Source: Methanobrevibacter sp. V74
GTDB taxonomy: Archaea; Methanobacteriota; Methanobacteria; Methanobacteriales; Methanobacteriaceae
Assembly: GCF_963082495.1 (NCBI RefSeq)
Contig: NZ_CAUJAN010000005.1
Coordinates: forward strand, 1 to 64,000
Length of the DNA: 64,000 nucleotides
Direction: 5' to 3'
In this document: one piece after another, positions 20,097 through 24,959 of the stretch
Layout of the letters: each line of letters starts with the position of its first letter
Position numbering within the stretch: position 1 is the first letter of the stretch
The notes under the pieces: generated by a model
What the model was told of the DNA's origin: nothing
Database searches by the model: none
What the model saw: only the letters and a program-made list of their open reading frames with translations
Position numbers and translations under genes: made by a program

Positions 20097-22253
20097 TTAT
20101 GAAGCATCAGCTACCTGAATAGCTTCTACTTCAATATCATTTGAAATATCTCTGTCGGATAATACAGATTTAGTACTCATTGCACCGAATATCATTGTAG
20201 ATAAGTTATGCAACATGGAAGATGTTGCAGGTTGAATTAAACCCATAACTCCTAAAACTAAAAGGGAACCATTGAATACAAGAATATTGCGGTAGTTAGT
20301 ATTAATTTTATCCAACATTCCAACACTTAACTTTCTTAAAGTGACAAGATCATATAAATCATCGGACAATAATGAAATATCAGCTACTTCACGGGCAATA
20401 TCAGAAGAGTGCTTCATTGAAACTGATACATCAGCGGCTGCCAATGCTGGTGAATCGTTAATACCGTCACCAACCATGATAACGGTTTTACCTTCAGCTT
20501 TAAGTTCTTCAACAATTCTGGATTTGTCTTCTGGAAGTACTTGAGATCTGTATTGGGTAATACCTAATGATTTAGCTCCTGCCTTAGCACCGCTTTCACC
20601 GTCTCCTGTAAGCATTATGACATTTTCAATACCTAAGCTTTTAAGCTCTTCAATGACATATTTTGCTTCCTCCCTCACAGGGTCATCAATGCAGATCAAT
20701 CCTTCAAGTTTACCATCGATAGCTAAATAAACTACAGAGTGTTCTGCGGCTTCTTTTTCGATTTTTTTCTCTTGAGTTTTAGTTAATTTAATTTTCTCAT
20801 CATCAAATAAGAAGTGTCTGGATCCTATTACTGCACGTTTACCATCATATTCGGTTACAATACCATGAGCTACAATATATTCAACTTCACTGTGGTCTTC
20901 ATCATGTTTAAGACCTTCCTCTGCAGCTTGATTTACAATAGATGTAGCGATACTGTGTGCGAAGTGTTCCTCAATACATGCCGCCATTCTTAAGATTTCA
21001 TCACGCTTATATCTTCTAGACATTGGAATTACATCAACAACTTTTGGAGTTGCATTAGTTAAAGTTCCGGTTTTATCAAATACAATTGTGTCAGCATTTG
21101 CATAGTGTTCAAGGAATTTACCGCCTTTAACCATCATTCTATTATCAGATGCTTCACGCATTGCAGAAATTACGGATAATGGAGTAGTTAATTTAATTGC
21201 ACATGAGAAATCGACCATAAGTACTGATAGTGCCTTGGATGCATTTCTTGTAATTAAATATGTTAAAGCAGTGGCAAGGAAACTATATGGAACAATTGAA
21301 TCAGCTAATCTTTCAGCTTTGCCTTGTGTTTCAGCTTTTAGATCTTCTGAGTTTTCGATTAAATCAATGATTTTGTTTAATCTAGTCTCTTTATTCATTG
21401 AGTAAACTTCAACAACAATGTTTCCTTCTTCCATAACAGTTCCCGCATGAACTGTTTTTCCATTTGTTTTATGAACAGCCAATGGTTCTCCAGTCATTGA
21501 AGCTTCATTAACCATACCTTCACCATCAACTACTTTTCCATCCACAGGAACTACATCGCCCATGCGAACTTTAATTCTATCTCCCTTATCAATGTCCATT
21601 GCTGGAACTTGTTTCTCTTCACCATCATCGTCAACTAGCCAGACTGTATCAATATTTAAAGCCAAACTATCTTTTAATGTACTTTTAGCTTTTTGTACAG
21701 TATAATGTTCTAGTTCATCGGAGATGGATAATAAGAACATCATGGAACTTGCAGGGTCATATTGTCCTTGTAATAAAGCACCAGTTACTGCAGCACCATC
21801 AAGTAAAGCAACATCGACACGGAAACTGGTCAAACTATCCAAACCGTTCCAAATATATTTTATAGCCCTATATAAAGTTATTGCATTTCTAATTGGCATA
21901 GGCAAGAACCATTTTCCAAGTAACCTACGTCCAATCATTCCACTTATGTTCCAATAGAAATCATCAGTAATTTCTTTTGAAACTTGAGTTTGAGTTGGTT
22001 CGGCTTCAAATAAATCATCGATTGTGATTCCGTCTAAAATATCGAATATCCTTTGTTTGTTTTCAACTTCCCCATCATAATAAATTAAAATACTACCATT
22101 TCTGTAAGAAGTGAAAACATCATGAATAAAATCTTGATCTAAAAGTAATGAAGCGAGACCATAGCCCTCTTCTTTAGTGAAAGCCCATTGACCAGCACGG
22201 ACTCTTAAACGAGGTCCACTATCATGCATTACTTGATATTTCATATTTATCAC
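20097..22253 (-). CDS. P1B-type metal-transporting ATPase with non-CPC ion site
   Basis: A 718-residue P-type ATPase. TGEP (ASMTGEPLAVH), DKTGTLT phosphorylation site, TGDGESGAK and MVGDGINDSPALAAADVSV are intact. The HP-type motif is altered to EEHFAHSIA. The N-terminus lacks a CxxC metal-binding domain and instead has a basic segment (GPRLRVRAGQWAFTKEEG). The membrane ion-site motif is VDFSCAIKLTTPLSVISAM, Ser-Cys-Ala in place of CPC. P1B ATPases with such motifs form separate groups of uncertain metal specificity, so the metal is not assigned. Export is likely. Its partner DUF6110-like gene precedes it by 18 bases, and a palindromic operator lies before both. The first Met or Met 4 could be the start. 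Confidence 0.9.
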   Translation of the reverse strand: MINMKYQVMHDSGPRLRVRAGQWAFTKEEGYGLASLLLDQDFIHDVFTSYRNGSILIYYDGEVENKQRIFDILDGITIDDLFEAEPTQTQVSKEITDDFYWNISGMIGRRLLGKWFLPMPIRNAITLYRAIKYIWNGLDSLTSFRVDVALLDGAAVTGALLQGQYDPASSMMFLLSISDELEHYTVQKAKSTLKDSLALNIDTVWLVDDDGEEKQVPAMDIDKGDRIKVRMGDVVPVDGKVVDGEGMVNEASMTGEPLAVHKTNGKTVHAGTVMEEGNIVVEVYSMNKETRLNKIIDLIENSEDLKAETQGKAERLADSIVPYSFLATALTYLITRNASKALSVLMVDFSCAIKLTTPLSVISAMREASDNRMMVKGGKFLEHYANADTIVFDKTGTLTNATPKVVDVIPMSRRYKRDEILRMAACIEEHFAHSIATSIVNQAAEEGLKHDEDHSEVEYIVAHGIVTEYDGKRAVIGSRHFLFDDEKIKLTKTQEKKIEKEAAEHSVVYLAIDGKLEGLICIDDPVREEAKYVIEELKSLGIENVIMLTGDGESGAKAGAKSLGITQYRSQVLPEDKSRIVEELKAEGKTVIMVGDGINDSPALAAADVSVSMKHSSDIAREVADISLLSDDLYDLVTLRKLSVGMLDKINTNYRNILVFNGSLLVLGVMGLIQPATSSMLHNLSTMIFGAMSTKSVLSDRDISNDIEVEAIQVADAS

Positions 22254-22271: not shown

Positions 22272-22538
22272 CTATTTTTTTGATTCAACATAAACTTCTT
22301 TTTTGACATCAGCATTTTCATCTACAACAATGTCCTCAGCATTTTCTTTCATATTTTGGAAGCATTCTTCAGCATCTTTTTTAGCAGACATTACAGTTGC
22401 CATTCCTTTAGTTGCAGCATCCTTAACAGTTTTAGATTCGATTATTTTTTTACCTACAATAGCTGTTGCAATTCCTGCTGCAAAAATTAATGCATGTTTA
22501 TGTTCTACAGTTGCTTTAATAATATCTTCACGTCTCAT
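22272..22538 (-). CDS. DUF6110-like small membrane-associated protein, P-type ATPase partner
   Basis: 88 residues: a short basic start (MRREDIIKATVEHKH), one hydrophobic segment (ALIFAAGIATAIVG), then KKIIESKTVKDAATKGMATVM. An acidic helical tail contains a single Cys (KKDAEECFQNMKENAEDIVV). I recognise this as the family now called DUF6110, which I recall being encoded next to this class of P1B ATPase in methanogens and gut Firmicutes. The function is unknown; an accessory or metal-handover role is inference from the gene pair. It is the first gene of the operon. Confidence 0.8.
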   Translation of the reverse strand: MRREDIIKATVEHKHALIFAAGIATAIVGKKIIESKTVKDAATKGMATVMSAKKDAEECFQNMKENAEDIVVDENADVKKEVYVESKK

Positions 22539-22620
22539 TTTTATACCATCCTTTAAATTTTTATATTAACTGAAGTTTTGAATACTTCAATTAAATATAG
22601 TTTGTTTTTAAACATATTTA

Positions 22621-22644
22621 ATATTTTAGGACTTCCTAAAATAT
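22621..22644. promoter_or_regulatory. 24-bp perfect palindrome, candidate metal-regulator operator
   Basis: Arms ATATTTTAGGA and TCCTAAAATAT separated by CT. It lies 83-106 bases upstream of the DUF6110/ATPase operon start, next to TATA-like sequence. The core TTAGG-ACTT-CCTAA matches two more sites near 23.9 kb. It resembles half-sites of DtxR/IdeR boxes (TTAGGTTAG...CTAACCTAA). Confidence 0.7.
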
Positions 22645-22831
22645 TCATTTTTTATAACTGGAAACAAAATACTTCCAACTCAGCAAGAAAGTTTTTTGAA
22701 CCTGATCTCAAAACTTATGTAAACCTAAAAACTATACTGAGTTTACATGAGTTATCTGACAATACAATATTAATTAGTCATATTATATAAAGTAATCGAT
22801 TTTTAAGACCCTTATAGGTCAAACAAAGGAT

Positions 22832-23155
22832 TTTTATTTAGTTATACAAAAAAATAATTTACGTGAATCAAAATAATTTTTAGCAATGCCAAAAAATGTC
22901 TTAAACTTAAAAAAATGCTTAAAAACAGGAAGAACAATAAAAGGCATGAAATTTAAAAAAGCAAAGGTGTGTACTTGAGGTAAAATCATGTAAAAACATG
23001 AAGTAGCTAATTTAAATTTAAAATGCCTTAAATGTATAACTTCTGGTTATACTATTAATAAATAACTTCCTCTTCATATTTAAATTAAACGGTTTAATTT
23101 TTAATTATACCTAAAAAAACATGACAGATTTTTAGTTATACCCAAAAAAACATGG
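22832..23155. repeat. dispersed A/GTTATAC motif, two copies in near-identical context
   Basis: TTTAGTTATAC followed by an A run occurs near 22836. TTAATTATACCTAAAAAAAC with ATG follows near 23100, and TTTAGTTATACCCAAAAAAAC with ATG about 32 bases later near 23131. GGTTATAC occurs near 23052. The two longest copies share about 20 of 22 bases. The role is unknown; binding sites or remnants of a short duplication are possible. Confidence 0.5.
22941..23029 (+). ncRNA. candidate stem-loop RNA element
   Basis: AAGGCAT (22941-22947) pairs with ATGCCTT (23023-23029), and just inside it AAATTT (22949-22954) pairs with AAATTT (23014-23019). Nested within is a 6-bp hairpin TCATGT/ACATGA with loop AAAA (22986-23001). 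The strand is uncertain. This is structure seen by eye in AT-rich DNA, so it could be chance. Confidence 0.3.
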
Positions 23156-23324
23156 AAAATTATGAATAAAAATAAGATGAATTTCAAAAAAAATATATGA
23201 CAATCATGTGAAATACTTAACATATCAAAGAAATCCAAAACGAGCATTGGCCAAAATTAATCATATTTTAACCTTAAAAGAATAATAAATGTATTCTGGC
23301 AAATACTCGAAAAAAATAATTAAA

Positions 23325-23450
23325 TTATTTTTTAATTATTTCACGAACAATAAATGCGCCTAATGCAACATCACGAACCAATCCAAGAGTAGAACGTGGA
23401 CGTAAGTGAAATAAACTAGGTGATCTACCGCGTCTATGTCTGTGACCCAT
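23325..23450 (-). CDS. 41-residue basic protein, function unknown
   Basis: A short frame with a strong SD (GGAGGG, 7 bases before ATG) and its own TATA-like element upstream. The product begins with a cluster of basic residues (MGHRHRRGRSPSLFHLRPRS). It ends in a hydrophobic helix (TLGLVRDVALGAFIVREIIKK), the layout of a small membrane- or nucleic-acid-associated protein. It is followed by an independently promoted iron-sulfur gene on the same strand upstream. I do not recognise a named family. The SD, codon use and amphipathic layout make it a convincing small gene. Confidence 0.75.
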   Translation of the reverse strand: MGHRHRRGRSPSLFHLRPRSTLGLVRDVALGAFIVREIIKK

Positions 23451-23612
23451 ATAACAACCCTCCGAAATTTTAAGTTACACACCAAGTTAACTACATATAA
23501 TATGTTAAAAAATCATTATATATAAATTAAACGGATAATATGGAGTTTTTTATATAACAGAGTGATAAAAATAAGTAAAAAAAGAAATAAAATTTTTATA
23601 TGCCTAAAAATT

Positions 23613-23894
23613 TTATAAACGGACTTGTGTTAAACAATGAGTCGGACACTTAACAGCACAATTAAGGCATTGAGTACATCTCCTATTATTTAAAGTCCAA
23701 GTTTTATTATGTACACTTACGGTAATGGCATTAACTGGACAAACTGCTTGACATCTACCGCATAAGGAACATCTTTGAATTTCATTTCCAATACGCCATC
23801 TTGACTTATGTGATGATTTTAAAAATTCGGAAAATATATGCATTCCAATCTCTAATGCAGATATTGAATTACCAGCACCGTATCTACCTCTCAA
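23613..23894 (-). CDS. stand-alone 2x[4Fe-4S] ferredoxin-like protein, NuoI/EchF type
   Basis: 93 residues from a TTG start with a strong SD (GGAGGGGTG, 5 bases before). Two complete [4Fe-4S] motifs, CSLCGRCQAVCP and CTQCLNCAVKCP, are separated by a segment containing WTLNNRRC. Together with the N-terminal HIFSEFLKSSHKSRWRIG region this resembles the electron-transfer subunit I/F of NuoI, EchF and related hydrogenase complexes, not a soluble 2[4Fe-4S] ferredoxin. No hydrogenase genes are next to it. An operator-like TTAGG-TATT-CCTAA lies 22-35 bases upstream of the start, which suggests control by a metal-responsive regulator. Confidence 0.85.
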   Translation of the reverse strand: MRGRYGAGNSISALEIGMHIFSEFLKSSHKSRWRIGNEIQRCSLCGRCQAVCPVNAITVSVHNKTWTLNNRRCTQCLNCAVKCPTHCLTQVRL

Positions 23895-23915
23895 ATTACA
23901 CCCCTCCCATAATAT

Positions 23916-23929
23916 TTAGGTATTCCTAA
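23916..23929. promoter_or_regulatory. TTAGG-N4-CCTAA operator before the iron-sulfur gene
   Basis: TTAGGTATTCCTAA, within a larger A/T-flanked inverted repeat, sits just upstream of the SD of the 2x[4Fe-4S] gene. It shares the TTAGG-nnTT-CCTAA pattern with the palindrome at 22621. Confidence 0.6.
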
Positions 23930-23955
23930 TTTTATTTTCCATAGTATATAAATAT

Positions 23956-23969
23956 TTTGGAATGCCTAA
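23956..23969. promoter_or_regulatory. variant operator before the CPBP protease gene
   Basis: TTTGGAATGCCTAA (complement TTAGGCATTCCAAA) differs at one arm base from the other two sites. It lies 28 bases upstream of the ATG at 23997 and next to the TATA-like TATATAAATATTTT. Confidence 0.5.
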
Positions 23970-23996
23970 ACTTATATTAAACGAATAACATATATA

Positions 23997-24959
23997 ATGC
24001 AAAATTCAAAAAATGATATAGGTGAAAAATTGAATATCAACAAAAAGTTTTTCTCAAAAATAGGCGCTAATTATTTAATATATGTTATATTAACCTTGAT
24101 TTTTCAAATAATTCTGGTGAATATCATATCTCTAATACAACCTGAATATTTAAATGACATTAATATGCAAACTATATTATCATCAATAGCTTGTTATATA
24201 CTTCCATTTCCAATAATTTATTGGCTAATGAATAAACTAGAGCATGTGGAAATCGAAAAAAGAAGTGTTGATGCTAAAAAATTTATCATATATATCGGAA
24301 TCACATGTGTATTGATGATGATTGGAAATCAAATTGGATTAGGCATAACCGCACTATTGGGCGGTGCAATACAAAATGACATTGCAAATCCAGTTCACAA
24401 CCTAGTTAATAATACAAACATATGGTTGAACTTAATATTGCTGGGAATTATGGCTCCCATTTTTGAAGAATTAATTTTTAGAAAATTATTAATTGATAGA
24501 ACACTTAAATATGGTGCTAAAGTGTCGATAATATTATCTGCAGTATTATTTGCACTTATACATGGTAATTTAAATCAATTCTTTTATACATTGCTACTTG
24601 GCGGATTTTTCGCATATGTATATATTAAAACCGGAAAAGTTACATATACCATAATATTACATACTATTGTTAATATAATGGGATCAGTAGTCAGTTTAAT
24701 CTTTTCAAGCTCCCTGATGAATATTCAAAATAGTTACAGTACAGTTGATTTGATAATTGTAATCGGATATACCCTATTTGTATTAATATTTTTCATCATA
24801 GGAATTTACGGACTTAAAGACTTTAAGCGAGCAAGGTTTAATGGCATCAAAACTCAAATTCCACTGAAATACCCATTTAAAACAATGTTTTTAAATTATG
24901 GGATGATTTTATTTGTTGGATATTTTATATTGCAAATAACTGCACAGGCATTAAGCTAA
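23997..24959 (+). CDS. CPBP-family intramembrane glutamic protease
   Basis: A 320-residue protein with eight or so membrane spans. The CPBP/CAAX-protease (ABI) motifs are present in order: EELIFRKLLIDR (EExxxR, catalytic Glu) near residue 162, FALIHGNLNQF with its His near 183, and HTIVNIMGS (HxxxN/D) near 222. In bacteria relatives process or protect small peptides; in archaea substrates are unknown. The start is uncertain. ATG at 23997 has no SD and would be near-leaderless, while an in-frame TTG at 24030 has AGGTGA just upstream. It is divergent from the iron-sulfur gene, with a TTAGG-type site between them. Confidence 0.88.
   Translation: MQNSKNDIGEKLNINKKFFSKIGANYLIYVILTLIFQIILVNIISLIQPEYLNDINMQTILSSIACYILPFPIIYWLMNKLEHVEIEKRSVDAKKFIIYIGITCVLMMIGNQIGLGITALLGGAIQNDIANPVHNLVNNTNIWLNLILLGIMAPIFEELIFRKLLIDRTLKYGAKVSIILSAVLFALIHGNLNQFFYTLLLGGFFAYVYIKTGKVTYTIILHTIVNIMGSVVSLIFSSSLMNIQNSYSTVDLIIVIGYTLFVLIFFIIGIYGLKDFKRARFNGIKTQIPLKYPFKTMFLNYGMILFVGYFILQITAQALS

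Follow-up and report, generated by a model that had tools for sequence, protein, structure and literature searches.

Candidate DtxR operators of a putative iron regulon at a P1B6 ATPase locus of Methanobrevibacter

Genes and operators of the locus

The window (the whole stretch of 64,000 nucleotides of Methanobrevibacter sp. V74 that was analysed) contains a group of four genes and three short palindromic boxes. A preliminary description of this DNA had named the gene products a DUF6110 protein, a P1B-ATPase, a 2x[4Fe-4S] protein and a CPBP protease, and had placed three copies of TTAGG-N4-CCTAA in their promoter regions. Pfam bears out the names (DUF6110, heavy-metal P1B-type ATPase, Fer4, Rce1-like/CPBP), and the copies lie where they had been placed, two of them exact (22626 and 23916) and one a variant (23956). 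The features are as follows.

20097..22244, minus strand: P1B6-like ATPase (start taken as the ATG at 22244; Pfam list and motifs)
22272..22538, minus strand: DUF6110 protein, 88 aa (Pfam PF19605, 30.4 bits against a cut-off of 26, E 4e-7)
22620..22645, no strand: operator 1, palindrome AATATTTTAGGA-CT-TCCTAAAATATT with core TTAGGACTTCCTAA at 22626-22639, upstream of DUF6110 (sequence and motif search)
23613..23894, minus strand: 2x[4Fe-4S] ferredoxin-like protein (Pfam Fer4; start uncertain)
23916..23929, no strand: operator 2, TTAGGTATTCCTAA, near the expected ferredoxin transcript start (sequence and motif search)
23945..23954, no strand: TATA-like stretch TATATAAATA, flanked by operators 2 and 3 (read from the sequence)
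23955..23970, no strand: operator 3, with a variant half-site, TTTTGGAATGCCTAAA (sequence, 16-mer search and relatives)
23997..24959, plus strand: CPBP (Rce1-like) intramembrane protease (Pfam PF02517, 74.5 bits against a cut-off of 22.4)

The palindrome of operator 1 consists of two 12-bp arms around a 2-base centre. Operator 3 has a 14-bp core, TTTGGAATGCCTAA, at 23956-23969, which reads TTAGGCATTCCAAA on the opposite strand; it is bordered by the TATA-like stretch on one side and CPBP on the other, and in the ferredoxin direction it covers the upstream promoter element. The TATA-like stretch may be usable both ways, for ferredoxin in one direction and for CPBP in the other.

Exact TTAGG-N4-CCTAA occurs twice in the window against 0.03 occurrences expected from shuffling (one of 100 shuffles reached two). 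With one mismatch allowed there are four matches, the fourth at 22715, where 2.0 would be expected (at least as many arose in 13 of 100 shuffles); because this count is near chance, operator 3 is not significant alone and needs other support. The shuffle counts had suggested that operator 3 is a chance match, a reading that was dropped since the box recurs at the same place in relatives. In 24 of 30 CPBP loci of relatives a box with at most one mismatch to the 16-mer TTTAGGNNNNCCTAAA ends 16-39 bp before the aligned CPBP start. Where a ferredoxin gene stands beside CPBP (13 loci), the CPBP-side box has the TTTTGGNNNNCCTAAA form in every case, and in nine of these loci a second box lies 40 bp from it.

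Among genomes that hold both genes, CPBP lies within 3.1 kb of the ATPase gene in 39 of 49, divergently in 37, and on another contig in 10. The grouping of pump and protease put forward in the preliminary description therefore stands as one of divergent neighbours (CPBP and DUF6110/P1B in 37 of 49), while its plain P1B pump is P1B6-like and is joined to feoB elsewhere. Together the pump, the ferredoxin and CPBP make up a genuine, movable unit with a link to iron uptake. It could still be that operators 2 and 3 both belong to the ferredoxin promoter and that CPBP is a bystander; six of the 30 CPBP loci carry no box. In four of them (genomes G040, G023, G041 and G001) the ATPase gene is part of a feo operon on a different contig; G044 also has it on a different contig, and G054 yielded no ATPase orthologue.

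A separate observation concerns the minus strand at 22660-22765, just upstream of operator 1, where about 110 bases of non-coding sequence are conserved in 24 loci (10 distinct sequences). This stretch carries a degenerate box and its consensus folds with -12.9 kcal/mol; covariation in the fold is weak, two of 31 pairs having changed on both sides, and the covariation term is unfavourable. A search of 22540-23320 against Rfam returned chance-level matches only, with no family fitting the conserved stretch, and at gathering scores Rfam gave no match in loci L073, L097 and L015.

The box in the genome and in related methanogens

The genome (2,299,297 bases, 15 contigs) was searched with the motif and, as a control, with the same pattern read backwards. 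Exact TTAGG-N4-CCTAA was found 19 times against 8 for the reversed control. Sixteen of the 19 sites are free of open reading frames of at least 60 aa, while all eight control sites lie inside such frames, the frames having been called by a longest-frame rule rather than a gene finder, so that wrong-strand frames are possible. Of the other three sites, two overlap the end of a frame by 4 bases and one (22626) falls within a 70-codon TTG frame, which was taken as spurious. The concern that the motif might occur as often inside genes as upstream of them is thus answered by 16 of 19 ORF-free sites against none of eight for the control. The 16-mer TTTAGGNNNNCCTAAA gave 15 exact and 23 one-mismatch sites, making 38, whereas the control searched with equal tolerance gave 30, and for this reason one-mismatch sites are by themselves weak evidence; three of the 23 lie inside frames and 20 are intergenic, a share for which there is no control counterpart.

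Boxes stand close upstream of genes for rubrerythrin, ferredoxin, FeoB, an ABC transporter and the window genes, as well as a 111-aa gene without a Pfam match, an LCM-type methyltransferase, another methyltransferase and a cobalt-type permease (PF09819). More than 200 bp separate boxes from a thioredoxin-reductase-like gene (two boxes), a 239-aa gene (three boxes), argG and an IF-2B-family gene, and two sites, C2:123396 (behind argH) and C4:118270, have no clear target. The boxes at C4:125947-126264 were considered as cbiM operators and rejected, as they lie behind cbiM and 260-564 bp before the 239-aa gene. Sites with one mismatch stand before dtxR, another LCM gene, mvhD, fdhD and mobB, and a further one separates hmd from a divergently oriented gene; some of these are bound to be chance matches. 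With 19 exact sites genome-wide and feoB among the targets, the regulon is not the small one of the preliminary description.

Two features of the arginine genes were recorded on the side: a box lies about 230-255 bp upstream of argG in three genomes (L097:4082, L203:1618, L211:1583), and behind argH a box follows TATATAAA in this genome (L073:4397), pointing into the antisense strand of argH.

The survey was extended to 149 genomes of the class. Exact 16-mers number 752 against 81 for the control in 66 congeners, and exceed the control in each of the 66; the counts are 404 against 38 in 70 other genomes of the family and 15 against 1 in 13 genomes outside it. Examination of 77 exact sites from six other genomes placed three of them inside open reading frames; because these sites were picked by the exact 16-mer, their flanking T and A are partly due to selection. 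Recurrent neighbours of these boxes, named by protein likeness, are feoB, feoA, two kinds of ABC gene, LCM methyltransferases, argG and DUF6110; mobB and the large subunit of a [NiFe]-hydrogenase are among those met once. Among boxes the half-sites are fixed and the spacer varies, the sites having been chosen by the half-sites. The 19-bp two-dimer form was fitted with fewer than three mismatches by none of 101 exact boxes.

A DtxR-type regulator and the placing of the boxes

One gene with a PF02742 domain was found in the genome, outside the window at C2:136491-137201. Its product carries PF01325 (68.1 bits), PF02742 (95.4 bits) and a third domain of the FeoA type, and is related to the solved proteins IdeR, DtxR, ScaR and SloR. 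What we take to be the metal-ligand positions of IdeR are M10, H79, E83, H98, C102, E105 and H106. The six that follow M10 are conserved in all 30 sequences from the genus, and the ligand set is retained in orthologues from 18 genomes outside it. In place of M10 there is Glu, which presumably also occupies the matching place of Mn-type relatives, and the metal of this DtxR is uncertain because of it. An observation apart from these positions is that residues 128-147 of the DtxR protein (gene at L018:1192-1905), which separate the metal domain from the FeoA-like one, hold four extra cysteines (C-x8-C-x6-C-x2-C), kept in 30 of 30 genus sequences and 18 of 18 other orthologues; they may form a second metal or Fe-S site.

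A single dimer of IdeR has been described as binding a half site, and in 2021 it was proposed that the 19-bp consensus be replaced by the 14-bp site TTAGGNNNNCCTAA (PMC8464063, in excerpt). Operators 1 and 2 match this site exactly. TTAGG/CCTAA half-sites are common to the motif here and to the iron regulons of IdeR and DtxR in Actinobacteria (PMC8464063, PMC524172), the one-dimer consensus is the same, and the regulator is a relative with most ligand residues kept. Unlike the actinobacterial sites, those described here stand in archaeal promoters, flank TATA and do not fit the two-dimer form, and the targets include P1B6, CPBP and feoB.

The gene for the regulator is itself boxed. In the dtxR promoter TTTAGGNNNNCCAAAA adjoins a TTTTTATA-type TATA box, and a variant box is present in 30 of 30 loci, with one mismatch to the 16-mer in 25 and two in five. 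The regulator gene and the Fe(II) uptake gene feoB thus both belong to the boxed set. Conservation upstream of orthologues, by which the preliminary description proposed to judge the motif, was found for DUF6110 (38 of 49), CPBP (24 of 30) and dtxR (30 of 30).

Boxes abut the upstream side of TATA in the promoters of DUF6110 and dtxR, as does the upstream box of feoB. The other placement is one promoter length downstream, and often both occur, 24 to 70 bp apart. This placing around TATA would suit repression. In operator 3 the altered arm has the sequence CCAAAA immediately ahead of the TATA of the ferredoxin direction; dtxR promoters have the same CCAAAA form, and the arm therefore probably reflects a requirement of the TFB-recognition element.

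Taken together, the three window sites are very probably operators of a genome-wide iron regulon under an archaeal DtxR, which would use one-dimer sites around TATA. The motif agrees with the one-dimer IdeR/DtxR consensus (PMC8464063, in excerpt) and one PF02742 gene was found, in keeping with the DtxR-type metal operator proposed in the preliminary description. Its notion of a single metal regulator with a shared regulon is supported, as far as sequence comparison goes, in respect of DtxR-type control; its scope was too narrow, and iron is the likeliest metal. In the mechanism we infer, each TTTAGGNNNNCCTAAA box would bind one DtxR dimer. Since boxes occupy the upstream edge of TATA, the region of the start, or the two together, DtxR carrying Fe(II) would stand in the way of TBP/TFB or of initiation. 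A fall in iron would open the boxed genes together, and in the window DUF6110/P1B6, ferredoxin and CPBP would rise in step with FeoB and DtxR elsewhere. A methanogen DtxR is tied to FeoAB also in Methanococcus voltae, where FeoA, FeoB and DtxR rise together on pyrite; that work combines proteomics with a model, and the passages of it covered hold no operator or regulon (PMC8516115).

Three other readings of the boxes were weighed against control by this DtxR through iron. That they are hairpins or chance AT-rich palindromes is scarcely credible: the one-mismatch matches of the window are near chance and some sites lie just behind stop codons, but the excess over control extends to 66 of 66 congeners, the place beside TATA is fixed in the dtxR, feoB and DUF6110 promoters, and half-sites stay fixed as spacers vary, albeit among sites chosen by their half-sites. 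It is also very unlikely that the boxes are real operators of some other regulator. A DtxR match was obtained in 89 of 91 genomes with a completeness of 90% or more and a contamination of 5% or less; the two without one are boxed all the same (G006, 14 boxes; G099, 7), as are two with a match of only E ~3e-4 (G024, 14 boxes; G020, 7), and these four genomes speak for another regulator. So does genus g13, which has DtxR and no box excess (5 against 3 for the control in six genomes). In its reading helix, however, the Gln corresponding to IdeR Q43 is replaced by Gly in all five sequences examined, and two genomes with distant DtxR relatives only (G088, G110) have one and no box. The substitution and the few boxes of g13 fit a pairing of DtxR with the box in a way that is suggestive only, because independent events are few and the IdeR variant Q43A binds almost normally (PMC8464063, in excerpt). 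Against another regulator are further the identity of the motif with the IdeR/DtxR consensus and the boxed dtxR in 30 of 30 loci. Fur was rejected as the regulator: its two weak PF01475 matches (27.5 and 26.6 bits), in a 410-aa ATPase-like and a 133-aa winged-helix frame, were judged generic.

The same boxes and the same DtxR might instead answer mainly to Mn, Co, Ni or divalent metals generally. The Glu in place of M10, the boxed cobalt-type permease gene (PF09819) and the one-mismatch boxes before mvhD, fdhD and mobB favour such a signal, whereas the Cys kept at IdeR position 102 in 30 of 30 sequences, the recurrence of feoB as a target and the joining of the P1B6 pair to feoB oppose it; we regard it as unlikely. 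Iron remains the most likely metal of the regulon, with binding of DtxR to the boxes, the Fe(II) signal and repression all predicted.

The DUF6110/P1B6 pair and its link to feoB

P1B6 ATPases have been characterized by HN in TM6, a TM4 without CPC and a DUF6110 partner (PMC9374683, in excerpt). The ATPase of the window has an N-terminal RLRVR, SCA at 349 in the TM4 region and HN at 681 near the C-terminus, and an HMA domain is absent from its Pfam list. It shows HN in TM6, no CPC in TM4 and a DUF6110 partner, with a TM numbering that is inferred; RLRVR is an observation of this analysis and lies outside the published description. The 88-aa DUF6110 protein would accordingly be a PacL-like partner of P1B6 ATPases as described in the same source.

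An orthologue of the ATPase with at least 69% identity, in some cases partial, was found in 54 of 60 congeners. Fifty DUF6110 loci were examined, one of which (L088) was left out, its contig ending within the gene. In 38 of the 49 congeneric loci with upstream DNA a box lies in the promoter of the pair, at most 105 bp from DUF6110. The pair in the 11 loci without a box of its own stands downstream of feoB in eight and behind a ferredoxin gene with a pair of boxes in three. In the eight feoB-linked loci a small Cys-rich gene directly precedes DUF6110, feoA is listed between feoB and the pair in four (in the other four the ORF rule called a different frame at that place), and feoB is boxed in all seven loci whose contig extends far enough. 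In L281 (M. olleyae) and L279 the pair and feoA-feoB point away from each other, and six and five boxes, respectively, lie between them, those of L281 mostly with one mismatch.

A toxic-metal efflux operon was dropped as the leading reading of these genes on the strength of the feoB linkage: a plain exporter of toxic metal is not the best reading, because the protein is P1B6-like and is joined to feoB in other species. We nonetheless weighed an exporter that guards against excess metal in the manner of mycobacterial PacL/Ctp, with the box activating rather than repressing. Both systems combine a small partner with a P1B ATPase, and DUF6110, a stated relative of the PacL domain DUF1490, accompanies P1B6 ATPases (PMC9374683, PMC13043812). 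The mycobacterial system, however, exports zinc, while the pair here is joined to an iron importer, sharing an operon or promoter with feoB in 10 loci, and its box abuts TATA as in dtxR. Protection by export is thus improbable, though still to be reckoned with; repression of an iron-moving pump is preferred, and the ATPase would have Fe as its cargo.

Control together with the importer feoB makes simple iron export less likely as well, and recalls the fezAB ferrosome genes, of which FezB is presumably a P1B6 ATPase. In Clostridioides difficile fezAB is repressed by Fur and, as is predicted for the pair here, is an iron-repressed set that joins a small membrane protein to a metal ATPase (PMC12574912, in excerpt). 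The two differ in that DUF6110/P1B6 is under a candidate DtxR, and the likeness is one of description. It is conceivable, if somewhat doubtful as a whole, that gut Methanobrevibacter build ferrosome-like stores, in which an iron-repressed DUF6110/P1B6 would load FeoB-supplied Fe(II) into membrane compartments, with ferredoxin and CPBP for redox and turnover, and with DtxR acting only via one-dimer sites at archaeal promoters.

A contig scan with the ATPase returned 47 loci, and the only matches from beyond Methanobrevibacter were two from Bacillota (54 and 50% identity) and a Terrimonas P-type ATPase (28%). The two Bacillota records (L286 and L287, Sellimonas and another) also have a DUF6110-like gene before the ATPase gene, which suggests transfer between bacteria and archaea. 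A Bacillota relative bears the same P1B6 marks (HN, SCA, DUF6110 upstream). Elsewhere in this genome, on contig C8 (L069:1666-2674), four tandem DUF6110-like frames follow a CPC-type P-ATPase, from which they are separated by a box with one mismatch, TTTAGAGTTTCCTAAA; the two frames put through Pfam scored below the cut-off, and a genome search put the last one above it.

As far as our searches reach, an archaeal DtxR regulon on one-dimer sites that includes a P1B6 pump and a CPBP protease is new. In literature that mostly excluded subscription papers, we found no paper that joins Methanobrevibacter and ferrosomes, and one review that names Methanobrevibacter and DtxR, each once. In these sites there appears to be a natural instance, genome-wide, of the one-dimer site proposed for IdeR/DtxR on crystallographic grounds, and a poorly known class of pump, P1B6 with DUF6110, is tied to ferrous iron through gene order in several arrangements. 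If this reading is true, methanogens of the animal gut would gain a defined iron regulon with a named regulator and operator.
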